Part shown: positions 3,189 through 16,854 of the stretch, in pieces
Numbering within the stretch: the first letter of the stretch is position 1
How the letters are laid out: every line of letters starts with the position of its first letter
DNA from: an uncultured Pelagibacteraceae bacterium
GTDB taxonomy: Bacteria > Pseudomonadota > Alphaproteobacteria > Pelagibacterales > Pelagibacteraceae
NCBI GenBank assembly: GCA_902528135.1
Contig: CABZRS010000002.1
Location: 79,409-114,481, forward strand
Length of the DNA stretch: 35,073 bases
Reading direction: 5' to 3'
Position numbers and translations under genes: made by a program
The notes under the pieces: model-generated
Databases searched by the model: none
Seen by the model: only the letters and a program-made list of their open reading frames with translations
Told to the model about the DNA's origin: nothing

Positions 3189-4313
3189 TTAGTTTACAGA
3201 CTCAATCACTGTAGCAATTCCCATACCTAAACCAATACACTGAGTTGAAAGTGCATATTTTTTATTTTCTCTCTTAAGTAGTTCAGCAGCTTTGCCCGTA
3301 ATTCTTGCACCTGTTGCTCCAAGAGGATGTCCAAGGGCAAGCGCTCCGCCATCTAAATTAACTTTATCTTTATTAATACCTAAATCTTTAATACATGCTA
3401 AGGATTGCGACGCAAAAGCCTCATTCAATTCAACAATATCAATTTTATCTGCTGTCAATTTAGCTCTTTCCAAAGCTTTTTTTGATGCTCCAATTGGACC
3501 TAATCCCATATAGTCAGGGTCACACCCTTGCACTGCAGTAGATACAATTCTTCCCAAAATATTTAAATTATTTTCTTTTGCATAACTTTCTTCACAAATT
3601 AATGTTGCAGCTGCACCATCGGTTAAAGGTGATGAAGTGGCTGCTGTAACAGTACCATTTTCATCGAACGCGAGTTTTAATCCATCCAACTTTTCCATTG
3701 TGCTGCCTGGTCTAATATTTCCATCGGTATCACAATCTCCGATTGATACAATTTCATTTTTAAAATTACCTTTTGTTTGTGCTTCATGTGCTTTTTGATG
3801 ACTTGAGATTGCAAATTCCTGTTGTTCATTTCTTGAAATATTATATTTTTTGGCAACATTTTCAGCAGTAGTTCCCATTGAAAAATAAACGTGCGGATTA
3901 TCATTTTTATTTTCTGGATAAGGTATTGGATCAAAACCTGTATTAACTCTAGTCATACTTTCAACACCTCCACATATAAATACTTTTCCTGCTCCTAACG
4001 AAATTTTACCTGCAGCAATATGAATAGCTTCCATTGAGGAACCACACCATCTATCAACTGTCATTCCAGAAGTTTTAACATCCATATTAGTTAAAAATGT
4101 TGTTAACTTTCCAATATTAAATGACTGCTCTCCAGTTTGAAATGCACAACCAACAACAATATCTTCAATATCCTCTTTTTTAACATTGGATTTAGCAACT
4201 AAATTTTTAATCACTTCTGCTAATAAATTTACAGGCTTTGTATCTACGAGCGCACCTTTTCTCGCCATTGTGAAAGGCGATCTTGAGAAGCCAGCAATTA
4301 CAGGTTTAAACAT
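3189..4313 (-). CDS. Thiolase (acetyl-CoA acetyltransferase family)
   Basis: Cytoplasmic thiolase catalysing CoA-dependent cleavage of a 3-ketoacyl-CoA to acetyl-CoA, or the reverse condensation. All catalytic elements are visible: nucleophile Cys90 in DRWCGSSMEA, NEAFA, His329 in GGALALGHPLGATGAR, and Cys359 in TQCIGLGMG. At 374 aa it is slightly shorter than typical acetyl-CoA acetyltransferases (about 390 aa), with an intact core. It is the last gene of a seven-gene minus-strand operon, 16 bp after the DmdA-like gene. In that setting it may release acetyl-CoA or propionyl-CoA from the product of the upstream enzymes rather than serve beta-oxidation; that role is inferred. The other candidate beta-oxidation gene in the window (16926-19148) is on the opposite strand and far away. 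Confidence 0.92.
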   Translation of the reverse strand: MFKPVIAGFSRSPFTMARKGALVDTKPVNLLAEVIKNLVAKSNVKKEDIEDIVVGCAFQTGEQSFNIGKLTTFLTNMDVKTSGMTVDRWCGSSMEAIHIAAGKISLGAGKVFICGGVESMTRVNTGFDPIPYPENKNDNPHVYFSMGTTAENVAKKYNISRNEQQEFAISSHQKAHEAQTKGNFKNEIVSIGDCDTDGNIRPGSTMEKLDGLKLAFDENGTVTAATSSPLTDGAAATLICEESYAKENNLNILGRIVSTAVQGCDPDYMGLGPIGASKKALERAKLTADKIDIVELNEAFASQSLACIKDLGINKDKVNLDGGALALGHPLGATGARITGKAAELLKRENKKYALSTQCIGLGMGIATVIESVN

Positions 4314-4329
4314 ATTAATAAATATAAAG

Positions 4330-5496
4330 TTAATCTGGGAATGGTAAAGAAGTTATAATGCCTTTTCTATTTTCTCCATTGAAAGTATTTACAAAAACCT
4401 CATTTCCAATTTCCCAATAATCTTTTAAAATCATAGAAAGACCTATATTCTTTCGAAATCCTGGAGAATATATTCCAGATGCAATTTGCCCAATTTTTGC
4501 ATTATCTTTTGAGTATACTGGTAAAGGCACACCGGTTGGCTTACACGGATCTCCATCAAACAAAATTCCTCTCATTCTTTGTACAATTCCATCAGATTGG
4601 ATCTTTCTTAAAGCCTCTTTACCTATAAAATCATGATCATCCTCTTGTTTGCAGTATTTTTCAAGATTACACTCAAGTGGGTTATTTTCTCTTGTAAAGT
4701 CATTTCCATAAGACATTAACCCAGCCTCAATTCTATCAATTAAATTTGGACATCCTGGAGAAATATTAAATTTTTGTCCGCTCTCCCATATAGTATCCCA
4801 AAGTTTTTCTCCAAGTTCTATCTCATTAAAATGTTTTTCAAATCCTTTAAAGTATATTTCAAAACCATCTTGTTTACTGTAACCAGATCTTGCAATAATT
4901 TGTTTAGTTCCTAAAAAATCAAACACTTTAAAATTAAAAAATTTTAACTTTTTTATATCCTCACCAAAAATTGAAATTAGTAGGTCCTCAGATTTCGGAC
5001 CTTGAATAGCTAGTGGATATACATCTGGTTCGATAATTTCTACATTTAATTTTGATCCTAAAGCAATTCCTTTTGCCCAAAGTAAAATATCAGAATCTGC
5101 AATAGAAATCCAAAACATATCATCGTCTAGTTTTAATAAAACTGGATCATTAATCATCCCAGCTGTGTCGTCAATTATTGGAACATAAAAACATTTACCG
5201 GTCTCCATTTTTTTTATGGGTCGTGGTGTCATTTTTTGCACCAATTTTTCAGCATCTGGCCCTGAAATTTGCACTTGTCTCTGGCATGACACATCCCACA
5301 CTTGAACCTGTTCTCTTAAATGCCAGTAATCCTCTTCAATGGTATTTTTAAAACCTTTTGGTAGTAGCATGTGATTAACAACAGTAAAATCAGATACTCC
5401 ACATTCCTCTACTTTATTAGTAAATGGAGTTCGTCTTATACGTCTAGACATATTTAATTTTATATTTTTTTGTGGAATTAAATTTTCTTTACTCAT
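4330..5496 (-). CDS. DmdA-like tetrahydrofolate-dependent demethylase (DMSP demethylase / GcvT family)
   Basis: GcvT-fold enzyme, 388 aa, expected to move a methyl or one-carbon group from a substrate to tetrahydrofolate. The N-terminus RIRRTPFTNKVEECGV...NHMLLP, then VQVWDVSCQRQVQISGPDA, is the arrangement I recognise from marine DMSP demethylase DmdA, so it belongs to that branch rather than to glycine-cleavage T-protein. The folate-domain Asp117 (MINDPV), SGYSKQDGFEIYF (204-216) and RIEAGLMSYGNDF are present. An extra N-terminal tail of about 15 residues precedes the usual DmdA start, and Met16 is a possible alternative start. True DMSP activity is not certain: the active-site segment reads SGY where I recall SGW in characterised DmdA, and the operon has no DmdB/C/D genes. 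It could act on another sulfonium, betaine or O-methyl substrate. One base separates it from the upstream gene. Confidence 0.8.
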   Translation of the reverse strand: MSKENLIPQKNIKLNMSRRIRRTPFTNKVEECGVSDFTVVNHMLLPKGFKNTIEEDYWHLREQVQVWDVSCQRQVQISGPDAEKLVQKMTPRPIKKMETGKCFYVPIIDDTAGMINDPVLLKLDDDMFWISIADSDILLWAKGIALGSKLNVEIIEPDVYPLAIQGPKSEDLLISIFGEDIKKLKFFNFKVFDFLGTKQIIARSGYSKQDGFEIYFKGFEKHFNEIELGEKLWDTIWESGQKFNISPGCPNLIDRIEAGLMSYGNDFTRENNPLECNLEKYCKQEDDHDFIGKEALRKIQSDGIVQRMRGILFDGDPCKPTGVPLPVYSKDNAKIGQIASGIYSPGFRKNIGLSMILKDYWEIGNEVFVNTFNGENRKGIITSLPFPD

Positions 5497-5497
5497 T

Positions 5498-5833
5498 TTA
5501 TTTAGACCACCAAACTGTGTAGCTATTTTTAGAGATTATAATTGGAATATGATATTTTTTATTTTGATCTTCCATTTTAAATTTAATATTAATTTCTGAA
5601 ACTATTTTTTTTTCTGAAAAATAATTGCCAGTTTTACAAACCATTTCATACTCACAATTGCAGTCGTCTTTACTTAATTCAAATTCTTGCAGTATTCGTC
5701 CACCTTCATCAGATTTAGTTTCGCAGAAAACTTTCTTTTCTCGATTTTCATTAATTTGATAAATAATTACATCAACATTTGCAGCATGCGAGCCATTTGT
5801 TGCATCCAATAAGTGAGAAGAGAAAGTTGCCAC
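5498..5833 (-). CDS. Transthyretin-like protein (5-hydroxyisourate hydrolase fold)
   Basis: Small protein, 111 aa, of the transthyretin/HIUase family, whose known members hydrolyse 5-hydroxyisourate in urate breakdown. The N-terminal signature SSHLLDATNGSHAANV carries His7, DEGGRI carries Arg46, and YHIPIIIS carries His95, so the His-Arg-His set of the hydrolase is kept. The C-terminal YRGS tetrapeptide, which closes the active site in canonical enzymes, is missing: the protein ends in VWWSK. Start is GTG at 5833, two bases after the stop of the ThDP gene; this start gives the exact family N-terminus. No other urate or allantoin gene lies in the operon, so hydrolysis of a different cyclic amide or lactone is possible. 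Family assignment is firm, substrate is not. Confidence 0.8.
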   Translation of the reverse strand: MATFSSHLLDATNGSHAANVDVIIYQINENREKKVFCETKSDEGGRILQEFELSKDDCNCEYEMVCKTGNYFSEKKIVSEINIKFKMEDQNKKYHIPIIISKNSYTVWWSK

Positions 5834-5835
5834 GA

Positions 5836-7578
5836 TTATTCTATTGATGATTTCTCTCTTTTACTTGCAACTGCAGATACTATTGGGCTTAATACAGGTT
5901 TTGCTTTAACGTTCACGCACGCGGGTTTTCCGCTTTCCATAGCTCTTTTAAGTGCTGGACCTAGCTCTTCTCTTTTATTAACTAATTCTCCATGTCCTCC
6001 AAAACCTTCAAATATCTTGTGAAATGGTATATCGCGGAAGTCAGTTCCCACACTTTTCCCACTTTTAAATAACCTCTCTTGTTGCTGACCAATTGAAGCA
6101 AGACCCCCGTTATTATCAATTACAACAGTAATAGGTTTTTTCTCATAAAATACACTTTCAATAGACATACCTCCTGATAAAAAAGCACCATCACCACTTA
6201 TCAGAACTACATTTGAATCTGGATTATGATTTTTAGCAGATAGAGCAAATGAAACTCCAACACCTAACATACTAAAAGTTCCAGGATGCAATATTCCTTT
6301 TAATTTTTTTCCTTTGGCACCTGCGATGTTGATTGCAATTTCTGACCAAAAATGAGTATTTCCTCCATCGATAACAAGCCAATCATTTTCACTCATTGCA
6401 TTTTGAACATCCAATGAAAGTTGTAGAGGGTGAATTTTTCCTCCATTTTTTTTAGATGCTTCAGCTTCAATTTCTAATTCTTTCAAAGATTTATCTACCC
6501 ACTCTTTCTTCTTTTTTTTATTCTCTTGAAACCACTTTGTATCTAAAGACCATTTATTATTTTTTTTTAAGTTGGATAATGTATCTAAAAAAACACCAGG
6601 ATCACTTAGCAAACTTAAATCTGCAGCTCTATTAAGTCCTAATTCTTCATGTGAACCATTTACACAAACTAATTTTGTTGACTCTGGTATAAAAGGTGGA
6701 TTTCCAAAATTTAATTGATTATCTAATCTCGCTCCAACGACAAGAACGAGATCTGAATTGTGTAATGCAAATTCTGAAGGAGGGTATTGATGTATATCAG
6801 CTAACCCCATGTAAGCGTTAGCTTCCTCTCCTAATAATTTTTGATGATACGGAACATTAAAAATTGGTATATTTAAATTGTTACCAGCTGCTTCAAGATT
6901 TTTTTCTGAATGTGACCACCAAACACCATGTCCACCAATGATGACTGGTTTTTTCGAATTACAAGCAAGTTCTAAGACTTTAGAGAGTGAATTTGGATCT
7001 GGCCACGCTTTAGCTATAGGTTTTGCTTTTTGAGAATATGGTCTTTCTTCTAAACCAACTTCCTCAGCAAAAGATGAAAACATTATATCAACAGGAAGAC
7101 TAAGATGTACAGCACCAGGATACCCATTAGTTGCAATATGATATGCTTTGTCTACAAATTCTCTTATTCTAGTTCCATCAGTAATACTTGCACTATATTT
7201 GGTTAAAGGGGCTGCAATTGAAACATCGTCAATTTCTTTAAAACCACCTGAACCTTGTCTTTTAAGACTGCTAGATCCTGTAATGTAAATAATGGGACTT
7301 CTCTCGCCCCAAGCTTCCATCATTGAAGGGACAGCATTAGTAAATCCTTCAGGTCCAACTAAACAGACTGATGGTTTACGTGTAATCCTTGTATTGCCAT
7401 CTGCTAAATGACCTGCAATTTGCTCATGTGGAGTGTTTATAACCTCAATTTGGCATTCAGCAAAACCTTCAATTGCTGGATTACAAAAACCCCCCGAGAG
7501 AGTGAAAACTTTGCTAATTCCTTTATCTTTTAGAGCCCTTGCAAGTAATGCTCCACCTCTAATTTTATTTTCGCTCAT
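5836..7578 (-). CDS. Thiamine diphosphate-dependent enzyme (acetolactate synthase / benzoylformate decarboxylase superfamily)
   Basis: Cytoplasmic three-domain ThDP enzyme, 580 aa. The N-terminal pyrimidine-binding domain has the catalytic glutamate Glu52 in PHEQIAGHLADG. The C-terminal domain has the diphosphate/Mg motif from GDG (462-464) to NN (489-490). This makes it a decarboxylase, carboligase or lyase acting on a 2-oxoacid or 2-hydroxyacyl substrate. Glu52 argues against glyoxylate carboligase, which lacks that residue. I cannot separate acetolactate-synthase-like, benzoylformate-decarboxylase-like and 2-hydroxyacyl-CoA-lyase-like functions by eye. Its ATG directly follows the stop of the FMN 2-hydroxyacid dehydrogenase gene. 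That pairing resembles mandelate dehydrogenase plus benzoylformate decarboxylase, where one enzyme makes the 2-oxoacid that the other cleaves. It is probably not housekeeping acetolactate synthase, since no IlvN regulatory subunit or IlvC is nearby. Confidence 0.85.
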   Translation of the reverse strand: MSENKIRGGALLARALKDKGISKVFTLSGGFCNPAIEGFAECQIEVINTPHEQIAGHLADGNTRITRKPSVCLVGPEGFTNAVPSMMEAWGERSPIIYITGSSSLKRQGSGGFKEIDDVSIAAPLTKYSASITDGTRIREFVDKAYHIATNGYPGAVHLSLPVDIMFSSFAEEVGLEERPYSQKAKPIAKAWPDPNSLSKVLELACNSKKPVIIGGHGVWWSHSEKNLEAAGNNLNIPIFNVPYHQKLLGEEANAYMGLADIHQYPPSEFALHNSDLVLVVGARLDNQLNFGNPPFIPESTKLVCVNGSHEELGLNRAADLSLLSDPGVFLDTLSNLKKNNKWSLDTKWFQENKKKKKEWVDKSLKELEIEAEASKKNGGKIHPLQLSLDVQNAMSENDWLVIDGGNTHFWSEIAINIAGAKGKKLKGILHPGTFSMLGVGVSFALSAKNHNPDSNVVLISGDGAFLSGGMSIESVFYEKKPITVVIDNNGGLASIGQQQERLFKSGKSVGTDFRDIPFHKIFEGFGGHGELVNKREELGPALKRAMESGKPACVNVKAKPVLSPIVSAVASKREKSSIE

Positions 7579-8742
7579 TTAGTAATCTACCTTATTTACA
7601 GTACTATTTATTACTATATTAGAAGTTACATCATTAATATCATTTAACCCTACTAACCCCAGTGTCGTGCTGGCTTCTTCTTTTATTATTTCCACAATTC
7701 TCCTTAATCCTTTTCTTCCATCAGCACCCATTGCGTACATTACTGGTCTACCAATCATTGCATAATCCGCACCAAATGCAAGCGCTCTCACGATATCACT
7801 TCCACTTCTTATTCCACTATCAAAGATTAAAGGGAAATCGTTTCCTACTGATTTTCTGATTAGTGGAAGCATATTTATTGCTGCCGTAGCACTATCTAAT
7901 TGTCTGCCGCCATGATTTGAAACTTGAATTGCATCTGCACCAGCTTCTTTTATTTGTTTTGCATCATCAGGAGACATTACTCCTTTAATTATAAGTTTAC
8001 CCTTCCATTTATCTCTTACTCTTTTAAGTGTATCCCAATCTGTAGTACCTCTACTTTCTTTTCTTTTAAAAATACCATCTCCACTTTTAGATGTAACATA
8101 GTTCATTGGTCTAGGAATGCCACTCAGCAAAGTCGAAATAGACCAAGTTGGATGAATTGCAAAATCAAAAAATTGTTTTGGACCAATCTTGAAAGGGTAG
8201 GAGAAACCATTTTTATCATCTCTAGTTCTCCTGGATAGCACTGGAACATCCACAGTTAATATTGCAACTTCGTATCCAGTATTCTTAGCTCTACCTAAAA
8301 GTTCCATGACAAAATTTTCATCTTGAAATATATATAGTTGCATCCATGAATGACCTTCTGATAGTTCATACATTTTTTCTAAAGTTGTTGTAGAAGCCAT
8401 AGAAACACATGTAGGTATATTATTTCTTGCACTTTCTGCTGCTAACATAGAGTCCGCTCCAGGCCATGATAAATTAGTCATTCCCATTGGAGCAAAACCG
8501 AAGGGAAAATCAAATTCATAACCTAATATTTTTTTCTTAAGAGATCTCTTTTCAACATTTCTTAAAACTTTAGGTTCAAGTCTAATTTGATCTAAAGCTC
8601 TGCTATTTATTTCTGCTAATTTTTCATCTCCAGATGCACCATCAATAAAATCAAAAACTAATTTAGGTAGACGTTTACGTGACAGTTCCCTTGCGTCTTT
8701 AATGCTAAAAATTTTTTGACTTGGTAAAATATTATCACTCAT
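7579..8742 (-). CDS. FMN-dependent 2-hydroxyacid dehydrogenase (LldD / glycolate oxidase family)
   Basis: Flavoprotein of 387 aa that oxidises an L-2-hydroxyacid to a 2-oxoacid, passing electrons to the respiratory chain or to oxygen. Family residues are all present: Tyr137 (QLYIFQD), Asp165 (TVDVP), Lys253 (IIKGV), His277 and Arg280 in SNHGGRQLD, and the FMN phosphate-binding DSGIRSGSDIVRAL. Substrate could be lactate, glycolate, a mandelate-like acid or a longer hydroxyacid; the sequence does not decide. Its start overlaps the end of the S51 peptidase gene by eight bases (ATGAGTGA) and its stop touches the ATG of the ThDP enzyme, so three genes are translationally coupled. The likely role is to supply the 2-oxoacid used by the neighbouring ThDP enzyme (inference). 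Confidence 0.9.
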   Translation of the reverse strand: MSDNILPSQKIFSIKDARELSRKRLPKLVFDFIDGASGDEKLAEINSRALDQIRLEPKVLRNVEKRSLKKKILGYEFDFPFGFAPMGMTNLSWPGADSMLAAESARNNIPTCVSMASTTTLEKMYELSEGHSWMQLYIFQDENFVMELLGRAKNTGYEVAILTVDVPVLSRRTRDDKNGFSYPFKIGPKQFFDFAIHPTWSISTLLSGIPRPMNYVTSKSGDGIFKRKESRGTTDWDTLKRVRDKWKGKLIIKGVMSPDDAKQIKEAGADAIQVSNHGGRQLDSATAAINMLPLIRKSVGNDFPLIFDSGIRSGSDIVRALAFGADYAMIGRPVMYAMGADGRKGLRRIVEIIKEEASTTLGLVGLNDINDVTSNIVINSTVNKVDY

Positions 8743-9427
8743 TATTAACTTTAATATATTCTTTTAAATTAAGTTGTTTATATTGATCAACAAAATAAGC
8801 ATTATGACTTTCTCTAGAAGAATAAACCTCCGTTGGTTTTCCGTCAATAAAAAGTACCGCAACTCCATCATCTACAGCTATACCACTTGGTAAAATTTTA
8901 TTATTTATATTTTCTCTGTATTTATAAGCTCTTTTTGCATCTGAATAATGTGGGGTAAAACTTCCAGATATAAGTCCAATACCACTTAACGGTTTAAAGC
9001 CAGGTCCATCTGAGTCTGTGAGAAAATAATCAAACCAGCATGCAGCTCCAGCACTTACACCAGAAACAATTATTCCTGAATTATAAACTTCTCTAAAAAT
9101 ATTAATTAAATTATTTCTTTTCCATAAGTCGAGCATGAATTTAGTATTTCCTCCACCAATATAAATTGCATCTAAATTTGAAATCCAGTTTTCAAAACCT
9201 TTAACATTGGAGACAAGGTTGAAGTGAGAAACTTTAAAGTTAGTATTTTTAAATCTTTTATAGAATAGCTCAGTTTTTTTGGTATCATCATTACTAGCAG
9301 TTGGCAAAAATCCTATAGAGCAGTTTTTTTTACCTATTTGATCTAAAAAAAATTGATCTAAATCACCATCCTCATTATGAGTGAAACCACCACCTCCAAC
9401 CGCTATTATTTGTTTTTTAGCCTTCAC
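8735..9427 (-). CDS. Peptidase S51 family protein (dipeptidase E / cyanophycinase-like)
   Basis: Cytoplasmic serine hydrolase of 230 aa, the usual size for peptidase E, which removes Asp from the N-terminus of Asp-X dipeptides. YIGGGNT (89-95) and the nucleophile elbow GVSAGAACW with Ser125 are present, followed by PHYSD with His160; spacing matches PepE (Ser120, His157). Start is GTG at 9427; it gives the glycine-rich first strand (IIAVGGGGFTHNEDG) at the correct distance from the N-terminus. It lies between the GcvT-like gene and the FMN dehydrogenase in one operon, divergent from a peptide-type ABC importer. It might therefore release the real substrate from an imported peptide or isopeptide-like conjugate. 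Exact specificity is unknown. Confidence 0.85.
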   Translation of the reverse strand: MKAKKQIIAVGGGGFTHNEDGDLDQFFLDQIGKKNCSIGFLPTASNDDTKKTELFYKRFKNTNFKVSHFNLVSNVKGFENWISNLDAIYIGGGNTKFMLDLWKRNNLINIFREVYNSGIIVSGVSAGAACWFDYFLTDSDGPGFKPLSGIGLISGSFTPHYSDAKRAYKYRENINNKILPSGIAVDDGVAVLFIDGKPTEVYSSRESHNAYFVDQYKQLNLKEYIKVNNE

Positions 9428-9438
9428 TAAATATATTT

Positions 9439-10668
9439 TTAATTTGTGGTTTTAATACCAGGCCACGGATTAGGCACTTTAGGAATATTTCTATTTAGGC
9501 CTCTAACAATTTCTCCTTTGGAATCATACATTGGCAATTTACAGATTTCTCCTTTATGAACTTTTCCATCAGTGCATTTAACATCAACAACATCTCCTGG
9601 TCCATTTTCATTATTATTGAGGTGTACAATACCAACTCCACAAATTTGATATGGTGACCAAGTGCTAGAAGTTATTTTACCAATATTTTTTTCATTTATT
9701 TTAATACCTTCACCTTTAATAGCAGTCCCCTCCACAACTCTAATTCCCCATGTCTTACATTTTTTGTCTGACGTCATAAGAGCTTCTTTTCCGATAAAAT
9801 CCTTTTTATCAAAATTTATAAAACGCCCAAGACCAACTGAAAATGGATTTGTTTTTTTTGTAAAATCTTGTCCTGCAGATAGTAGACCTGCCTCAATTCG
9901 TCTACATCTAAAACCTGGTGTGGCGACTAAAATCATACCTAGTTTTTTTCCTTCCTCAAGAATGTAATCTCCTATTTTTTCAGTCTCATTTTCAGGTCGA
10001 AAATAAATTTCCCAACCTAGTTCGTTTGTAAAACCACTTCGGCTTATAATTACTTTTTGATCTAAGATTTGTAATTCTTTCCAATCAAAGTACTTCCAAT
10101 CATTCTCTGAAAAATCTTCAGCTATATTTTCAAGTAGTTTCATTGATAAAGGACCTTGGATTTGACTTACCCATACTTCTGGATCTTTTATTTCAACATC
10201 CATATTTTTAGAGTGAGCTTTATACCATGAAAAAAGATCTCCATCTGCTTGAGCAAACCAATATTTATCCTCTTCAATTTTTAATAGAACACCATCTGTA
10301 ATCATTCCTCCATCATGATAACAAGCAAACTGGTAAGAACATCTTCCTTTTGATATTTTTGATACATCTCTTGGAAATATTTTTTGTAATAATTTTAATG
10401 AATCCGGACCAGATATTTCAAATGGATGCTCACCCGTATGTCTAAATATTATCTCCTGCCTTCCTTTCCAATACATTTCTTCGGAACTAACATTTGATAA
10501 TTTCTCAAGCGTTAATCTTCCAGCATAATTAGAATATTCAGGGTCGTAGGGGAGCTCCTGGTATGTTAGTGGGTGAACTTGAATTGACCTAGCAAGCTCC
10601 AAAGTGTTTGAATTTTCAAGGCTAACAGGCTTAACTGTAAACCTATATTTATTGATTAAATCTTTCAT
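9439..10668 (-). CDS. GcvT-fold, tetrahydrofolate-dependent demethylase/aminomethyltransferase-like protein
   Basis: First gene of the seven-gene minus-strand operon, 409 aa. It has the GcvT/DmdA/LigM folate-binding architecture: FEISGPDSLKLLQ (83-95), the conserved folate-domain Asp125 in GMITDGVLLKI, VSQIQGPLSMKLL, SRSGFTNELGWEIYF (209-223), RIEAGLLSAGQDFT, then the barrel domain with FIGKEAL. The first 45 residues (HPLTYQELPYDPEYSNYAGR) differ from the other GcvT-fold protein of this operon and recall the O-demethylase branch. The two proteins are therefore distant paralogues rather than a recent duplication. Expected reaction is transfer of a methyl or one-carbon unit to tetrahydrofolate in the cytoplasm; substrate unknown. 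Glycine-cleavage T-protein is unlikely: there is no gcvH or gcvP here and the protein is longer than GcvT (about 365 aa). Confidence 0.82.
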   Translation of the reverse strand: MKDLINKYRFTVKPVSLENSNTLELARSIQVHPLTYQELPYDPEYSNYAGRLTLEKLSNVSSEEMYWKGRQEIIFRHTGEHPFEISGPDSLKLLQKIFPRDVSKISKGRCSYQFACYHDGGMITDGVLLKIEEDKYWFAQADGDLFSWYKAHSKNMDVEIKDPEVWVSQIQGPLSMKLLENIAEDFSENDWKYFDWKELQILDQKVIISRSGFTNELGWEIYFRPENETEKIGDYILEEGKKLGMILVATPGFRCRRIEAGLLSAGQDFTKKTNPFSVGLGRFINFDKKDFIGKEALMTSDKKCKTWGIRVVEGTAIKGEGIKINEKNIGKITSSTWSPYQICGVGIVHLNNNENGPGDVVDVKCTDGKVHKGEICKLPMYDSKGEIVRGLNRNIPKVPNPWPGIKTTN

Positions 10669-10782
10669 TACTTTTTTTTAAATAATCAAAATACATCAAT
10701 AAAACAAATAAAAAAGAACCATTTTCACTGTTGCTATATAAGTTGCTAATTGTTACCTTTTATTTTTTAAAGAGAGGAAATT
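10669..10782. promoter_or_regulatory. Divergent regulatory region between seven-gene operon and ABC importer
   Basis: This 114-bp gap is the longest non-coding stretch in the window and must hold the promoters for both the minus-strand operon and the plus-strand importer. It contains the heptamer GTTGCTA twice, at 10730-10736 and 10742-10748, spaced 12 bp apart, which could be half-sites for a regulator. I could not identify convincing -35/-10 boxes on either strand. No regulator gene lies alongside. Confidence 0.5.
10771..10778 (+). promoter_or_regulatory. Ribosome-binding site of the ABC importer binding-protein gene
   Basis: AGAGAGGA ends four bases before the ATG at 10783. It is the clearest Shine-Dalgarno sequence in the window, where most genes rely on overlaps or have only weak purine runs. 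It fits the high expression expected of a periplasmic binding protein and supports this start. Confidence 0.6.
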
Positions 10783-12270
10783 ATGAAAAACATTTTTAAA
10801 TTGATATCAGTTTCATTGGTATCACTATTTGTAACGTTTTCTTTTGCCAATGCATCAAGTGGAGTTTTTAAATTATCTCATGATGTTGGTTTTGGAAAAG
10901 ATACAAATTTAGACGCAATTACTAAAGGACGACTGTTTCAGGTAGTAATAATGACACAGAACCGTCTCGTAAGAAAAGATCTAAAAGGGGTTACATCTCC
11001 TGAGCTTGCAACCGACTGGTCAGGAAATGCAGATGCAACAGAATGGACTTTTAACTTAAGAAAAGGTGTAAAATTCCATGATGGATCTGAATTTGATGCA
11101 GAGGATGTAAAATATTCTTTGATGAGAGTTAAAGATCCAGAAATTGGTTCACCTGCAAAGAAAAGCATGAGTGCAGTAACTGATATTGAGATTGTAAACT
11201 CACATACAGTTAAAATGAAGTTGAATACATCTTTTGCAGATTTTCCACTTTTATTAACTGATTACAGATTAAGAATGATACCTAGTGGATCAGGAGATAC
11301 TATTGGAAAAACAGGTATTGGAACTGGACCTTTTATAGTAGAAAAGTTTGATGCTGAGGGAACAACAATTCTTAAAGCAAACCCAGATTATTGGGAAGGG
11401 GCTCCTAAACTTGCTGAAGTACATGTAATAGCTATCCCAGATGGTCAAGCTAGAATTCAAGCTCTACTTACAGGTCAGATTGATATGAATAGATATGTTC
11501 CATTCAATCAGAAAAAAATATTTGATGGTAATTCAAAGTTTAACGTTTCAGTTATACCTACAGGAAACTGGAGAGGTATGGTAATGAGAACTGACGTTGC
11601 ACCATTTGATGACGTGAGAGTAAGAAAGGCTGTCAGAATAGCTGTAGATAGACAAGAATTAGTTGATCTAGTTATGGCTGGAGCAGCAACAGTATCTTGT
11701 GATACTCCTGTTGCACCTTCCGACCAATACAGAATGAAGAAGAGTTGTCCACCTCAACCAGCAACTGCAAAAAAATTACTTGCTGAAGCAGGTTATCCAG
11801 ATGGAATTGATATGACAATTCACGTTTCTACAAAAGAACCAACATGGCCAACTATTGCTGAAGTTTTACAACAACAATTTGCAAAAGCTAACATAAGAGC
11901 AGATATCCAAATGACACCTTCAAAAAGTTATTGGAATGAAACTTGGATGAAAAAGGCTGTAGCAATGACACGTTGGAATGAGAGACCTGCAGACAGTATT
12001 TTGCATGAAGCTTATCATAGTGAAGCAAAATGGAACGAGTCTTTCTATAAAAGTGCTTCTTTTGACAAAAATTTAGCTGAAGCTAGAGGAGAGTTAAAAT
12101 TTAGCAAAAGAAAAGCAGCATACATCAATGCTCAGAAAACTCTATGGGAAGAATCTGGAACAATGATTCCTTATCACGTATCTAGACTGGTTGTCACATC
12201 TTCTAAAGTGAAAAATCTTGACGAAGTTGAGTATTTTTCAATTAGATGGCACACAGTTAGCGTTCAATAA
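10783..12270 (+). CDS. Peptide/solute ABC transporter substrate-binding protein (SBP family 5, DppA/OppA-like)
   Basis: Periplasmic binding protein, 495 aa. It has a clear Sec signal peptide: basic start MKNIFK, hydrophobic core to about residue 20, predicted cleavage ANA|S after residue 24. The mature part shows family 5 hallmarks: NRLVRKDLKG, PELATDWS, WTFNLRKGVKFHDGSEF (about 88-104), DAEDVKYSLMR, and later GTGPFIVEKF and NPDYWEG. Family members bind dipeptides, oligopeptides, nickel-histidine, glutathione, opines and other small molecules, so substrate is open. It heads a complete importer operon and is separated from the first permease by 82 bp containing a 12-bp-stem hairpin. Divergence from the seven-gene catabolic operon suggests it imports that operon's substrate (inference). 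Confidence 0.92.
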   Translation: MKNIFKLISVSLVSLFVTFSFANASSGVFKLSHDVGFGKDTNLDAITKGRLFQVVIMTQNRLVRKDLKGVTSPELATDWSGNADATEWTFNLRKGVKFHDGSEFDAEDVKYSLMRVKDPEIGSPAKKSMSAVTDIEIVNSHTVKMKLNTSFADFPLLLTDYRLRMIPSGSGDTIGKTGIGTGPFIVEKFDAEGTTILKANPDYWEGAPKLAEVHVIAIPDGQARIQALLTGQIDMNRYVPFNQKKIFDGNSKFNVSVIPTGNWRGMVMRTDVAPFDDVRVRKAVRIAVDRQELVDLVMAGAATVSCDTPVAPSDQYRMKKSCPPQPATAKKLLAEAGYPDGIDMTIHVSTKEPTWPTIAEVLQQQFAKANIRADIQMTPSKSYWNETWMKKAVAMTRWNERPADSILHEAYHSEAKWNESFYKSASFDKNLAEARGELKFSKRKAAYINAQKTLWEESGTMIPYHVSRLVVTSSKVKNLDEVEYFSIRWHTVSVQ

Positions 12271-12278
12271 TAATTTTG

Positions 12279-12308
12279 TTTTACAGGCCTTTAAGTAGGC
12301 CTGTAAAA
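12279..12308 (+). terminator. Intra-operon hairpin between binding protein and permease
   Basis: Perfect 12-bp stem TTTTACAGGCCT (12279-12290) / AGGCCTGTAAAA (12297-12308) with a six-base loop. The following bases CCTCTTTCATTT are only moderately T-rich, so it is a weaker terminator than the one at 1045. It sits 9 bp after the binding-protein stop and 44 bp before the permease start. It may terminate part of the transcripts or protect the 3' end of the binding-protein mRNA from decay. Confidence 0.75.
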
Positions 12309-12352
12309 CCTCTTTCATTTCTAAATAAATAATTTAAAATTTAAGTATTCTT

Positions 12353-13309
12353 ATGCTTTTTTTAATTATAAAAAGAATTCTATTAGGTTTAATAACTTTA
12401 TTTATTGTATCTTTAATTACTTTTGTTGGAACAGAAATTTTACCTGGTGATGCTTGTACAACGTATCTTGAAAGACAGGCATTTGGTGAGCAATTAGAGG
12501 CTTGTTATAGAAGATTAGGTTTGAACGTTCCTGCATACGAAAGATATGTCTCTTGGGCAGTAAATGCTATTCAAGGAGATTTTGGATACTCTTTAAGTGG
12601 AGAAATGCCAATTAAAGAGGTTCTAGGACCAAGAATTAAAAATTCTTTAGTTCTAGCATCAGCTGCTATTTTTATTGGTATACCAATCGCTTTAATACTC
12701 GGAATAGTAACAGCGCTTTGGAGAGATAAATTACCTGACGTAGCAATTTCAACAGTAACTATATTCGCTATGACTATTCCAGAGTTTATCAGTGCTACTT
12801 TATTAATCTTAATAATTGCAATTTGGTTAGAATGGTTACCAGGTATTGTAATTGTTCCAACTGATGTTTCATTCTTAGAACTATTACCAAATATTATTTT
12901 ACCAGTAATCGCTATTGCAATGATTATGACAGCTCATATGGCACGGATGGTGAGATCAAGCGTCATTCAAGTTATGGCAAGTGAATATGTTCAAATGGCA
13001 ATTTTAAAAGGTGTTCCGTATTGGAAAATGGTTTTTAAACATGTTTTACCAAATGCATTGTTACCTGCTATTAATGTTGTAGCTTTAACAATTGCATGGT
13101 TATTAGGAGGAGTTGTTGTAACTGAAGTTGTATTTAATTACCCAGGTCTTGGAAGATTGGTTATTGAGTCGATTTCAAATAGAGATTTACCTACAGTTCA
13201 AGCATTAGCAATAATTCTTGCATCTATATATGTTAGTATAAATTTATTGGCGGATCTAATGACACTTATGCTTAATCCAAGATTAAAGACGTTACAGATT
13301 AGAAAATAA
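12353..13309 (+). CDS. dppB: Peptide-type ABC transporter permease, DppB-like
   Basis: Inner-membrane permease, 318 aa, with the DppB/OppB layout. The first helix (about 5-27) is followed by the external segment with LPGDACTTYLERQAFGE and GDFGYSLSGEMPI. Five more helices follow, with the EAA loop SEYVQMAILKGVPYWKMVFK contacting the ATPase (about 206-225). The external Cys pair (CTTYLERQAFGEQLEAC) is a small distinguishing feature that could form a disulfide in the periplasm. One base separates its stop from the ATG of the second permease. Start at ATG 12353 places TM1 at the N-terminus as usual; no strong Shine-Dalgarno is present. Confidence 0.92.
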   Translation: MLFLIIKRILLGLITLFIVSLITFVGTEILPGDACTTYLERQAFGEQLEACYRRLGLNVPAYERYVSWAVNAIQGDFGYSLSGEMPIKEVLGPRIKNSLVLASAAIFIGIPIALILGIVTALWRDKLPDVAISTVTIFAMTIPEFISATLLILIIAIWLEWLPGIVIVPTDVSFLELLPNIILPVIAIAMIMTAHMARMVRSSVIQVMASEYVQMAILKGVPYWKMVFKHVLPNALLPAINVVALTIAWLLGGVVVTEVVFNYPGLGRLVIESISNRDLPTVQALAIILASIYVSINLLADLMTLMLNPRLKTLQIRK

Positions 13310-13310
13310 T

Positions 13311-14204
13311 ATGAAATTAGATAATATTTATCAGGAAGAAAAGAAAAGCAATTTAGCAAAGGTCTCTGAGATAATAATTACAATGGCCTCAAGACCGTCA
13401 GGATTTATTGGTTTAAGTATATTGATTTTCCACGTAATACTTGCATTTATTAGTCCTTATATTGCACCATATGATTTTAAAGCTATAAATCCAACTTTAA
13501 TGCTACAGGCTCCTTCGGCTGAGTATTGGTTTGGAACAGATGATCTTGGAAGAGATGTGTTTACTAGAACAATTTTAGGTGGAAGAACAGCATTAACAAT
13601 TACTTTCTTTGGATCTTTGATAGCACTACTTTGGGGCGGTCTATTAGGAATTTTTTGTGGACTAGTTGGTGGAAAAACTGACGATATTGTGATGAGAATT
13701 GTTGATGCATTTTTATCTATACCTTGGATATTAGCAATGTTGTTAATTGTGTCTTTGTTAGGCACATCAACTGAAGTGTTAATACCAGCTTTGGGTTTCT
13801 TTTATGGTAAAGGAATTGTGAGAGTAGCAAGAGCTGCAACTCATGATGTTATTGCGAAAGACTTTATTGTATCCGCTAGAGCAAGAGGTCACAGTAATTT
13901 TTCAATAATATGGAATGAAATAATTCCAAATGTAAGAGATGCAATTTTAGTGGAAGGTGCAATGAGATGGTCGTGGATGCTACTTGGCTTTAGTTCTTTG
14001 TCTTTCCTAGGTTTTGGTGTTAGTCCTCCAACTCCAGATTGGGGATTGATGATATCAAACGCAAGAGGTTTAATGTCTTTTGCTTATTGGTCTGTGATAG
14101 CTCCAATAGTTGGTTTAAGCAGTTTAATAATTGGCATCAATTTGACAGCTGATGCTTTTGCTAAAGCATTAGGTATAGATCGATCAACAAAAGCTCCAGT
14201 TTAA
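13311..14204 (+). CDS. dppC: Peptide-type ABC transporter permease, DppC-like
   Basis: Second inner-membrane permease, 297 aa. It shows the N-terminal OppC-type segment (helix about 27-48), then the characteristic WFGTDDLGRDVFTR motif, DAFLSIPWILAMLLIVSLLG, the EAA loop VSARARGHSNFSIIWNEIIP, and the C-terminal FLGFGVSPPTPDWGLMISNA. All are hallmarks of DppC/OppC subunits that pair with a DppB-type partner. It follows dppB by one base and precedes the ATPase gene by two bases, so the three are almost certainly one transcript with coupled translation. Nothing is missing relative to the family length. Confidence 0.93.
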   Translation: MKLDNIYQEEKKSNLAKVSEIIITMASRPSGFIGLSILIFHVILAFISPYIAPYDFKAINPTLMLQAPSAEYWFGTDDLGRDVFTRTILGGRTALTITFFGSLIALLWGGLLGIFCGLVGGKTDDIVMRIVDAFLSIPWILAMLLIVSLLGTSTEVLIPALGFFYGKGIVRVARAATHDVIAKDFIVSARARGHSNFSIIWNEIIPNVRDAILVEGAMRWSWMLLGFSSLSFLGFGVSPPTPDWGLMISNARGLMSFAYWSVIAPIVGLSSLIIGINLTADAFAKALGIDRSTKAPV

Positions 14205-14206
14205 AA

Positions 14207-16234
14207 ATGACTGAAATAATTCAAAAAGTAAAAAATTTATCTATTGGATTTAAAAGTAAAAAAGGTGAAGAGATTTTAATACTAAGAAACATAAGTACAA
14301 ATATAAAAAAAGGTGAAACCGTTGGTATTGTTGGAGAATCTGGATCTGGAAAAAGCACTCTCGCACTAGCAATGATGGGGTATGTTAAGCATGGTCTCTA
14401 TACTATTGGTGGAGAATGTGAATTCAATTCCTCAAATCTTTTAAAAATGAAAAATAGAGATTTGGAAAAAATCAGAGGTAGAAAAATTGCGATGATACCG
14501 CAAAATGCTGGACAGGCATTAACACCAAATTTAAAAATAGGTTATCAAATTGATGAAGCATTACAGTTGCATTCTGATTTAAAGGAGGAGGAAAGAGAAC
14601 AAAAAATTTCAGAATTGTTAAATAAAGTGAGACTTCCTTCACCAGAAACAATTGCTCTAAGATATCCTCATGAACTTTCAGGAGGACAACAACAGAGAGT
14701 TGCTGTTGCTATGGCATTAGCGGGAACTCCTGACCTTCTACTATTGGATGAGCCTACAACTGGCTTAGATGTAACAACTCAAGCTCACGTTTTAGAACTT
14801 CTTAACTTCATTGCGAAAGACACAGGAACATCAATGGTTTATGTAAGTCATGACTTAGGAGCAATAGCTCAAGTAAGTGACCGTATTATTGTAATGTACT
14901 CTGGTGAAATAGTTTTGGAGGGGCCCTCTCGAGATATTCTTAAAAAACCAATTCATCCGTATACCTATGGTTTGCTTAAATCTATACCAAAATTATCACT
15001 TGCAGGACTTCCACAATCAATGCCTGGTAGCCAACCTCAACCTGGAGCAATTCATAGAGGCTGTAGTTTCTTTGATAGGTGCGATTTTTCAGAAGAAAAA
15101 TGTAAAAGTAACTCTCCTCAACTTGAGTACTTAGAGCAATTAAATACTAGTGTTAGATGTTTTAATCATAAGAGTTTAATGAATGACAGTCAGGTTAATC
15201 AAACTGTTAATAAAATTAAGACGAGTTTGCAGGATAAAGAAATATTAAATATTTCAGAAGTTTCAATAAGTTACGCTAAGCAAAATCTTTTAGATCAAGT
15301 GTTAAATAGAATTTCTGATGATAACCCAACTGTTAAAGATATTAATATTAATATTAAGAAGGGTGAAACTATAGCTCTAGTTGGAGAATCAGGTAGTGGA
15401 AAATCAACAATTCTCAAATCTATTGCTGGGTTACTCAGAACCAAAGGTGGAATAATAAAATTTGATCAAAAAAGAAACTTATCATCTGACCTTAAAGAGA
15501 GAGATCCCAATGATTTAAGAATTATTCAATTAATTTTTCAAAATCCAGATGAGTCTTTAAACCCAAACCATACTGTTGAAGAAATAATAGCACAACCATT
15601 AAAGTTATATTTTGGTTTAAAGGGTGAAGAATTAAAAAAAAATATTATAGAGCTATTACAAAAAGTAAGACTGGGTGAATTTTATATGTCTAGGTACCCT
15701 AGACAATTATCTGGAGGTGAAAAACAGAGAGTTGCGGTTGCAAGAGCTTTTGCAGCTAAACCAGATATAATATTATGTGATGAGGTAACATCTGCGTTAG
15801 ACGTATCAGTTCAGGCGGCCGTATTAAATTTGTTACAACAACTTAAAGAAGATTTTGGGACTACATATATATTTGTTTCACATGATTTAGCTGTCGTAAG
15901 AGCTATAAGTGATAGAGTTGCTGTTCTTTATCAAGGAAGATTGTGTGAAGTGGGACCATCAAAAGATGTTTATCAATTTCCATCACACCCTTACACAGAG
16001 GTTTTATTAGGAGCAGTGTTAGAACCAGATCCAGATATCAAACCAAAATTAGTTGCTGAGGATATTGTAGAAGAAAAGCCACCTCAGAAAGGGTGTAGTT
16101 TCCAGGGGAGATGTTCAAGAATATTAGGTGATATTTGTAAAAATGAGATACCACCATGGCAAATAACTAACAGTGGAAACTCTATCAGATGCCACATACC
16201 ATTAAAAGAATTACAAAAAGACCAGATTAATTAA
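14207..16234 (+). CDS. Fused double ATP-binding protein of peptide-type ABC transporter (DppD-DppF fusion)
   Basis: Cytoplasmic ATPase, 675 aa, carrying both nucleotide-binding domains that are separate proteins in E. coli Dpp. Domain 1: Walker A GESGSGKS 43-50, signature LSGGQQQR, Walker B LLLLDEPTTGLD. Domain 2: Walker A GESGSGKS 393-400, signature LSGGEKQR, Walker B IILCDEVTSALD. Each domain ends in the oligopeptide-transporter C-terminal cysteine motif (GCSFFDRCDFSEEKC and GCSFQGRCSRILGDIC). In characterised DppD/OppD-type proteins that motif can hold an iron-sulfur cluster. In domain 2 the usual Pro after Glu in DEP is Val (DEVTSALD), a tolerated variant. Fusions of this kind (GsiA/YejF-like) are common. 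It completes the importer operon. Confidence 0.93.
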   Translation: MTEIIQKVKNLSIGFKSKKGEEILILRNISTNIKKGETVGIVGESGSGKSTLALAMMGYVKHGLYTIGGECEFNSSNLLKMKNRDLEKIRGRKIAMIPQNAGQALTPNLKIGYQIDEALQLHSDLKEEEREQKISELLNKVRLPSPETIALRYPHELSGGQQQRVAVAMALAGTPDLLLLDEPTTGLDVTTQAHVLELLNFIAKDTGTSMVYVSHDLGAIAQVSDRIIVMYSGEIVLEGPSRDILKKPIHPYTYGLLKSIPKLSLAGLPQSMPGSQPQPGAIHRGCSFFDRCDFSEEKCKSNSPQLEYLEQLNTSVRCFNHKSLMNDSQVNQTVNKIKTSLQDKEILNISEVSISYAKQNLLDQVLNRISDDNPTVKDININIKKGETIALVGESGSGKSTILKSIAGLLRTKGGIIKFDQKRNLSSDLKERDPNDLRIIQLIFQNPDESLNPNHTVEEIIAQPLKLYFGLKGEELKKNIIELLQKVRLGEFYMSRYPRQLSGGEKQRVAVARAFAAKPDIILCDEVTSALDVSVQAAVLNLLQQLKEDFGTTYIFVSHDLAVVRAISDRVAVLYQGRLCEVGPSKDVYQFPSHPYTEVLLGAVLEPDPDIKPKLVAEDIVEEKPPQKGCSFQGRCSRILGDICKNEIPPWQITNSGNSIRCHIPLKELQKDQIN

Positions 16235-16290: not shown

Positions 16291-16854
16291 ATGAAAAATA
16301 ATTCGACTTTAATTAAAAATTTACTATCAGATTTTAGAATAAATACTTATTTTCAGAATATTTCTTTGATGATAATAGGTACACTTATCCTAGCTTTTTC
16401 GTCAAAAGTTCAAGTTCCATTTTGGCCAGTTCCAATGACAATGCAAACTTTTGCAGTTTTTATCATCGGAATGACATTCGGTTCAAAGTTAGCTTTTTTC
16501 ACACTTTTATTGTATCTCTTCGAAGGAGCTATTGGATTTCCAGTTTTTGCAAAAGGTGGTGGATTACTTTATTTAACAGGTCCAACGGCTGGCTATCTTT
16601 ATGGAATGACTATTGCAGCTGGTGTTGTAGGCTATTTAGCAGAAAGAAATTTTAACGACTCTTATATTAAAAGTTTATTTTCTCTTTTGATAGCAACTTC
16701 TATTATTTTTATTTTTGGGGTGGGTTATTTGGGCTCAGTTATCGGTTATGAAAAGGCTTTAGCTGGCGGTCTATATCCCTTTTTACCAAGTGAATTATTC
16801 AAAATTGCTCTAGCAGTGGCAATAATTCCATCAATTACAAAAATAATTAAATAA
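16291..16854 (+). CDS. bioY: Biotin transporter BioY
   Basis: Integral membrane substrate-binding (S) component for biotin uptake, 187 aa, with six hydrophobic segments. The BioY signature is clear: VPFWPVPMTMQTFAVFIIG (about 45-63), LYLFEGAIGFPVFAKGGG, and TGPTAGYLYG (about 98-107). Some BioY proteins work with the ECF ATPase/transmembrane module and some alone; no ecfA or ecfT is in the window. The 56-bp gap after the peptide importer shows neither a hairpin nor a clear promoter, so read-through is possible. A dedicated biotin importer fits a streamlined organism that cannot make biotin (inference from family knowledge). Confidence 0.92.
   Translation: MKNNSTLIKNLLSDFRINTYFQNISLMIIGTLILAFSSKVQVPFWPVPMTMQTFAVFIIGMTFGSKLAFFTLLLYLFEGAIGFPVFAKGGGLLYLTGPTAGYLYGMTIAAGVVGYLAERNFNDSYIKSLFSLLIATSIIFIFGVGYLGSVIGYEKALAGGLYPFLPSELFKIALAVAIIPSITKIIK

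Follow-up and report, generated by a model that had tools for sequence, protein, structure and literature searches.

An insertable gene island of SAR11 bacteria resembling an import and breakdown route for a methylated organic acid

Background

We analyzed a stretch of 35,073 nucleotides (hereafter, the window) from an uncultured Pelagibacteraceae bacterium (GenBank assembly GCA_902528135.1, contig CABZRS010000002.1, positions 79,409 to 114,481). It sits on contig 2 of an assembly of 1.06 Mb that is 79% complete. Seven minus-strand genes of the window and a divergent importer of the Dpp/Opp type form a discrete genomic island, and the intact empty site of this island is found in related SAR11 genomes. 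Four of the genes make up a core that recurs in other alphaproteobacterial families. They encode a flavin mononucleotide (FMN)-dependent L-2-hydroxyacid dehydrogenase (FMNdh), a thiamine diphosphate (ThDP)-dependent enzyme, a transthyretin-like protein (TTR), and a paralog of DmdA, the demethylase of dimethylsulfoniopropionate (DMSP). The remaining three encode a second GcvT-fold protein (GcvT2), an S51-family hydrolase, and a thiolase. It is quite possible, and is our tentative reading, that the island serves to take up and degrade an onium carboxylate with several methyl groups, either a quaternary ammonium or a sulfonium compound.

The protein families are known, and their combination is new: we found no description of this gene set in the open-licence PMC literature. 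The accessible part of a study on SAR11 habitat genes names no aminomethyltransferase, GcvT or demethylase among them (PMC12636525). A reading made earlier from the letters of the window and a list of its open reading frames (the original prediction) had arranged the genes into a pathway leading from import and demethylation to a finishing thiolase.

Results

An island at one insertion site in SAR11

Loci with the same genes come from Pelagibacteraceae or Pelagibacterales records, mostly of single-cell isolates. From 523 relatives of the ThDP enzyme, of whatever kind, the locus scan took the best 80. All seven genes are present in 66 of these 80 loci, and in the remaining 14 genes are missing only at contig ends. 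An uninterrupted string gcvT2-S51-FMNdh-ThDP-TTR-DmdA paralog was found in 69 loci, and in 63 it extends to the thiolase; three loci have split hits. The binding-protein gene of the importer adjoins gcvT2 in 69 loci, and no other gene order was seen among the 80. GcvT2 was found in at least 15 of 73 genomes of the genus (G000-G072, among 121 searched), many of which are incomplete assemblies.

The insertion site was also inspected in 12 hand-picked genomes, around the gene of a 3-hydroxyacyl-CoA dehydrogenase (3HCDH). Three of them carry the island (L191, L197, L198). In eight island-less genomes (L188, L190, L192-L196, L199) a polyamine-type permease gene and the 3HCDH gene are only 3-56 bp apart, so the block is inserted between two neighbouring core genes. 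In one further genome (G1029, L189) the thiolase gene stands alone between the same two flanks. The gene row is thus more than a chance arrangement, as shown by the empty site between the flanks and by its conservation across SAR11. The original prediction had treated the seven genes and the importer as one unit and had named a lack of conservation together as what would refute it; this test was run and did not refute the unit, and the shared insertion site also bears it out.

The flanking 3HCDH/enoyl-CoA hydratase gene (16926-19148) was considered as a part of the island and rejected: it occurs in 92 of 111 genomes of the genus and in all 17 of good quality. As a core gene, it provides no evidence for the pathway. 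Downstream of it, two island-less SAR11 genomes have ORFs (open reading frames) of about 2000-2100 amino acids (L193, from 11143 onward; L196, from 4913 onward).

The thiolase is separable from the island and is accessory. Its close homologs at the cluster were found only in SAR11; among the 46 non-SAR11 loci read, four have a thiolase, and it is distant (35-36% identity). The thiolase as the end of the pathway was rejected on these grounds and because it persists without the island in G1029, and so the finishing step that the original prediction had assigned to it did not stand.

Arrangement of the genes

The seven minus-strand ORFs follow each other with gaps of 16, 1, 2, 0, -8 and 11 bp (3189-10668), and 114 bp part gcvT2 from the plus-strand importer ORFs (10783-16234; Table 1). 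These coordinates agree with the packed row and the divergent importer of the original prediction, and Pfam confirms every protein family that it had named. No Rfam family matched anywhere in the window at gathering scores.

Table 1. Features of the island and its surroundings in the window
Feature	Position	Strand	Family matches and basis
Thiolase, acetyl-CoA C-acyltransferase subfamily; accessory	3189..4313	-	PF00108/PF02803; TIGR01930 417.6 bits vs cut-off 240.55
DmdA paralog, GcvT fold; core	4330..5496	-	PF01571; NF009133 529.5 vs 410
Transthyretin-like (TTR) putative hydrolase; core	5498..5833	-	PF00576; TIGR02962 73.1 < cut-off 87.45
ThDP-dependent enzyme; core, most conserved member	5836..7578	-	PF02776/PF00205/PF02775
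FMN-dependent L-2-hydroxyacid dehydrogenase (FMNdh); core	7579..8742	-	PF01070
S51-family hydrolase (PepE/cyanophycinase family); importer-linked	8735..9427	-	PF03575
Second GcvT-fold protein (gcvT2); SAR11 and f142 loci only	9439..10668	-	PF01571/PF08669
Divergent intergenic region, 114 bp	10669..10782		ORF list
Family 5 (Dpp/Opp) solute-binding protein	10783..12270	+	PF00496
Importer permease B	12353..13309	+	PF00528
Importer permease C	13311..14204	+	PF00528
Importer ATPase, two fused ABC domains (DppD-DppF type)	14207..16234	+	PF00005 x2, PF08352 x2
BioY-family gene; within the insertion in part of SAR11 only	16291..16854	+	PF02632

Some SAR11 islands have the BioY-family gene within the insertion, and others lack it. 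Two SAR11 loci have a family 3 solute-binding protein gene on the opposite strand between gcvT2 and the S51 gene (L028:8918-9646, L029:9651-10205).

A four-gene core in five families

Outside SAR11 we considered four alphaproteobacterial families: f110, which we take to be SAR116, f24, presumably Rhodobacteraceae, and two designated f82 and f142. Orthologs of the ThDP enzyme were found in 22 of 61 genomes of f110, 62 of 100 of f142, 20 of 394 of f24 (9 of 198 in a smaller draw) and 5 of 14 of f82; each count, also in the wider samples, includes the own or query genome. They are rare in wider samples (6 of 385 genomes of the class; 2 of 398 of the phylum, both of the same class). A plasmid search with the ThDP protein gave 11 records, none reaching 60% identity, and the ThDP proteins outside SAR11 are 61-79% identical to that of the window.

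We read 60 loci, a subset of the hits (SAR11 14, f142 4, f110 19, f82 3, f24 20). Of these, 52 have the complete set of FMNdh, the ThDP enzyme, TTR and the DmdA paralog, and all five families, SAR11 included, are represented among them; this and the other linkage counts are per locus, with about five families behind them rather than 60 independent events. Four of the eight exceptions end at contig ends (L023, L024, L032, L183). TTR is present in all 57 loci that hold the ThDP gene. These four genes are the core, and the thiolase lies outside it.

FMNdh and the ThDP enzyme

FMNdh matches PF01070 with 396.6 bits and keeps the catalytic His277, Arg280 and Lys253 in 48 of 48 aligned sequences. It does not reach the cut-off of the LldD model (NF033901, 231.4 < 550 bits); among solved structures L-lactate oxidases are the best matches, followed by (S)-mandelate dehydrogenase. 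The ThDP enzyme keeps its catalytic Glu52 in 57 of 57 sequences, and 260 of its 580 alignment columns are at least 95% identical. Its scores stay below the NCBIfam equivalog cut-offs for acetolactate synthase, 2-hydroxyacyl-CoA lyase and oxalyl-CoA decarboxylase (the best being NF004516, 278.4/587; NF058623, 244.5/600; NF006721, 211.8/557). Among solved structures it resembles oxalyl-CoA decarboxylase and 2-hydroxyacyl-CoA lyase, and its match to glyoxylate carboligase is weak.

In the mandelate pathway (MdlB-MdlC), a FMN-dependent 2-hydroxyacid dehydrogenase likewise stands beside a ThDP enzyme that acts on a 2-oxoacid. The island shares this pairing and the second-best structure match of FMNdh, but its ThDP enzyme resembles other members of the family and it adds genes for methyl transfer.

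The DmdA paralog

The DmdA paralog has the GcvT fold, a length similar to that of Pelagibacter ubique DmdA (3TFH) and 47% identity to it. The glycine cleavage T-protein cut-off (TIGR00528, 235.85) is reached neither by it (142.8 bits) nor by GcvT2 (118.3 bits). Folate-binding Glu and Tyr, taken from the accessible part of PMC7487153 and mapped to positions in this analysis, are kept in 53 of 53 and 52 of 53 cluster sequences, respectively. The same source, as far as accessible, reports W171 as the key Trp for interaction with DMSP; we mapped it to position 197 of 3TFH. All 53 cluster sequences have Tyr there, while both other paralogs of the same genome have Trp. In the tree, the cluster paralogs form one clade apart from DmdA (support 100/95), and the fork that joins this clade to DmdA is weak (89/51). 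Unlike DmdA, the paralog is also linked to FMNdh, the ThDP enzyme and TTR.

The paralog could still be an ordinary DMSP demethylase, with unrelated enzymes added by the island. Its score is well above the cut-off of the DMSP demethylase model, its identity to DmdA is considerable, and Tyr at the Trp site is shared by three of the six f24 sequences placed on the side of DmdA in the tree, so that the Trp-to-Tyr change does not exclude DMSP. We nevertheless give this alternative little credence: the same genome encodes, at another locus, a protein nearer to DmdA (L002/L245, with 77% identity to that of P. ubique), the cluster paralogs are a separate clade with an invariant Tyr, and the four-gene set recurs in five families.

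A third DmdA-like gene of the genome (L003:1183-2325, G000 contig 7) is 39% identical to P. ubique DmdA, and its clade falls outside both the DmdA and the cluster clades. Cultured SAR11 of subgroup Ia have four aminomethyltransferases, two of them without an assigned substrate, according to the consulted section of PMC3160333; dmdA is confined to one subgroup of SAR116, as stated in the available part of PMC8547437.

The transthyretin-like protein

The predicted structure of TTR is confident (predicted local distance difference test score, pLDDT, of 91.3) and has the fold of 5-hydroxyisourate hydrolase (HIUase) and transthyretin; the best Foldseek match is 2igl (YedX/HIUase, TMq 0.83). The active-site His, Arg and His of HIUase are kept in 54 of 54 sequences. 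YRGS, which we take to be the C-terminal motif of HIUase, is found in none of the 54, and the HIUase model TIGR02962 gives 73.1 bits, below its cut-off of 87.45. A second homolog, present in 10 of 23 genomes, scores 112-123 bits against PF00576, and the island TTRs score 54-73. Of the 20 genomes with any homolog, 10 gave the island TTR alone, most of these 10 being incomplete assemblies; in G004 it and gcvT2 are on separate contigs, gcvT2 being at a contig end. None of three island-less SAR11 genomes has a TTR homolog. By score and C-terminus, we judge that the island TTR is not a HIUase, even though it shares the fold and the active-site residues with HiuH/UraH.

According to the excerpt available from a 2025 study (PMC11698098), many genomes of SAR11 and SAR116 encode a second homolog of hydroxyisourate lyase whose function is other than purine catabolism. 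The island TTR may be this homolog, which agrees with it in taxonomic range and in occurring where purine genes are missing.

These data bear on a purine or ureide pathway, in which TTR would act as the HIUase, FMNdh would oxidize glycolate and the ThDP enzyme would be a glyoxylate carboligase. The PF00576 membership and the fold of TTR would agree with it. However, the low scores, the loss of YRGS, the occurrence of TTR with the island and the purine-independent function given for such a homolog in the part of PMC11698098 at hand led us to reject it; moreover, the ThDP enzyme keeps its catalytic Glu and matches glyoxylate carboligase weakly. We consider purine catabolism very improbable.

S51 hydrolase, importers and neighbouring genes

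The S51 hydrolase travels with the importer type. It is present in all 32 loci that have an island-type binding protein (at least 42% identity), in none of the seven with the other Dpp binding protein (27-29% identity), and in one of 21 with neither (L177). The original prediction had placed this peptidase on the uptake side, and the counts argue for it. Ser125 and His160 are kept in 28 of 28 S51 sequences. The Pfam score of the protein (130.9 bits) exceeds the cut-off of 23.9, and neither the PepE (PRK05282, 38.9 < 156) nor the cyanophycinase (TIGR02069, 35.3 < 126.6 bits) cut-off is reached.

A tripartite ATP-independent periplasmic (TRAP) importer of the DctP type occurs at 10 loci of four families. 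Eight of these, in f110, f24 and f82, have it beside the core, six of them together with an Ldh2-type dehydrogenase. The other two are SAR11 loci (L026, L028), whose TRAP_M protein is 77-78% identical to an f110 protein; none of the other 92 SAR11 loci has a TRAP importer within the stretch around the locus. A class IV aminotransferase gene follows the thiolase in two SAR11 islands (L028, L029), and PanE-like genes occur in three f24 loci. Together with FMNdh, the Ldh2-type 2-hydroxyacid dehydrogenases, aminotransferases, PanE-like genes and TRAP importer fit a 2-oxoacid as the hub.

Such variety would also suit a scavenging island for peptides or amides, whose enzymes would act on a range of substrates and not in a single pathway. 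The importer type varies by lineage (two Dpp types, TRAP) while the core stays, and the thiolase and BioY come and go. But the same four-gene core in five families and the presence of TTR at every ThDP locus make this improbable in our view.

Another alternative concerns the substrate, which might be a dimethylsulfonio 2-hydroxyacid from the series of DMSP biosynthesis (4-dimethylsulfonio-2-hydroxybutyrate, DMSHB, or, by way of transamination, S-methylmethionine). A methylthio acid would be made by the DmdA paralog and a 2-oxoacid by FMNdh, and decarboxylation by the ThDP enzyme would precede release of methanethiol. The DmdA paralog adjoins the DMSP demethylases in the tree, at the weak fork mentioned above, and genes handling hydroxy, oxo and amino acids are all found at the loci. 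Genes for SBP56, presumably a family of methanethiol oxidases, neighbour the core in four loci (L221, L234, L236, L237), and in L216 the core is followed by a gene for a Cys/Met pyridoxal phosphate enzyme. However, SBP56 occurs in two families only, which chance allows as many gene families were scanned. The enoyl-CoA hydratase (ECH) encoded beside some cores is nearest to ECHDC3, with no DmdD among the structures listed, and the acyl-CoA dehydrogenase (ACAD) resembles long-chain enzymes. A sulfonium substrate also leaves MttB (see below) and the second GcvT-fold enzyme unexplained. We regard this version as unlikely.

The assignment of ECH and ACAD as DmdD and DmdC was accordingly dropped as unsupported. 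Neighbouring SBP56, agmatinase-like, proline racemase, BKACE/carnitine-dehydrogenase-like and PhyH genes were also set aside, each being found in too few lineages.

GcvT2 and MttB

GcvT2 is present in all 14 SAR11 and all four f142 loci and in none of the other 42. A MttB-family gene lies near the core in 12 of 19 f110, 4 of 20 f24 and none of three f82 loci (16 of 42 together), and in no SAR11 (0/14) or f142 (0/4) locus; a search of 94 SAR11 loci at E 1e-20 found none. GcvT2 is below the cut-offs of all eight NCBIfam models it matches (NF009133, 196 bits vs 410). In 15 of 15 sequences it keeps the folate-binding Glu and Tyr and has Phe at the DmdA Trp site. Its predicted structure is of low confidence (pLDDT 39.7).

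B12-dependent demethylation of glycine betaine by MttB-type enzymes has been described in marine bacteria; in the accessible part of the same paper, mtgC is reported in SAR116 and not in Pelagibacteraceae, and up to seven MttB-family genes per genome are noted, for which further substrates are suggested (PMC12478193). That MtgB/MttB system likewise passes onium methyl groups to tetrahydrofolate, and MttB-family genes lie near the f110 and f24 cores. Unlike the island, it is corrinoid-dependent, acts on glycine betaine and uses other downstream enzymes, while Pelagibacteraceae lack MtgC and have GcvT2.

We infer from the lineage complementarity that GcvT2 may be a B12-free replacement of the corrinoid step, which is an attractive idea. 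In its broadest form, this idea would amount to a single pathway of Alphaproteobacteria, so far undescribed, for a methylated acid that is abundant in the sea. Such a pathway would be B12-dependent through MttB in f110 and f24 and folate-only in SAR11, where the GcvT-fold enzyme replaces the corrinoid step, and would include a new class of transthyretin-fold hydrolases coupled to a ThDP enzyme. As a whole, this broad form is rather doubtful.

Distant relatives of GcvT2 (35-38% identity) in two genomes of another family, outside this cluster, follow a gamma-glutamyltranspeptidase gene (L035:7064-10059, L036:6718-10016); here too a GcvT-fold enzyme is paired with an amide hydrolase.

Discussion

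We infer the following reactions and their order from the conserved genes. The Dpp/Opp importer would take up the methylated acid, at least partly as an amide-like conjugate, from which the S51 hydrolase would free it. GcvT2 would move a first methyl group to tetrahydrofolate, as a B12-free counterpart of the MttB-type corrinoid methyltransferase of related families, and the DmdA paralog would remove another. FMNdh may then oxidize the 2-hydroxyacid to a 2-oxoacid, which the ThDP enzyme would decarboxylate or cleave. TTR would hydrolyse a ring or an amide tied to the ThDP step, and the SAR11 thiolase and general beta-oxidation may take the product. Of the readings, this scheme of import, release, demethylation, oxidation, cleavage and hydrolysis is the one in which every conserved part has a role. 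The pathway of the original prediction is retained in its middle: methyl transfer and a 2-hydroxyacid/2-oxoacid step are likely, given the core linkages and the kept residues, and the thiolase finish is not retained.

Several points weigh against the proposed catabolism of a methylated onium acid, the weakest of its parts being the second folate demethylation and the substrate. A tertiary amine or a thioether is a poor methyl donor, which makes the second demethylation uneasy. The DmdA paralog passes the DMSP demethylase cut-off, and the substrate-side Arg174 of FMNdh is kept in 43 of 48 sequences. Two loci of one f82 genus (L047:9440-12629, L222) have the ThDP and TTR genes without FMNdh or the DmdA paralog and with an asparaginase gene upstream; FMNdh is also missing from L219, and both FMNdh and the DmdA paralog from L244. 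The complementarity of GcvT2 and MttB tracks lineage and does not reflect numerous independent events, and MttB is absent from the stretch read in 26 of the 42 loci of families other than SAR11 and f142. Finally, f142 combines GcvT2 with a gene resembling a homocysteine S-methyltransferase, which reaches none of the cut-offs, and this means that GcvT2 is not necessarily a substitute for MttB.

Conclusions

Some of the most abundant bacteria of the ocean carry an insertable block that resembles a full, undescribed route for the import and breakdown of a methylated organic acid. The same core stands beside a B12-type enzyme in some relatives and a folate-type one in SAR11, and the proposed B12-free replacement of a corrinoid demethylase is testable. 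The second homolog of hydroxyisourate lyase in SAR11 and SAR116, unexplained so far and described in the part of PMC11698098 available to us, probably belongs in the context of this island. The island also calls for caution in surveys of DMSP demethylation, as part of the sequences counted as dmdA may not demethylate DMSP.

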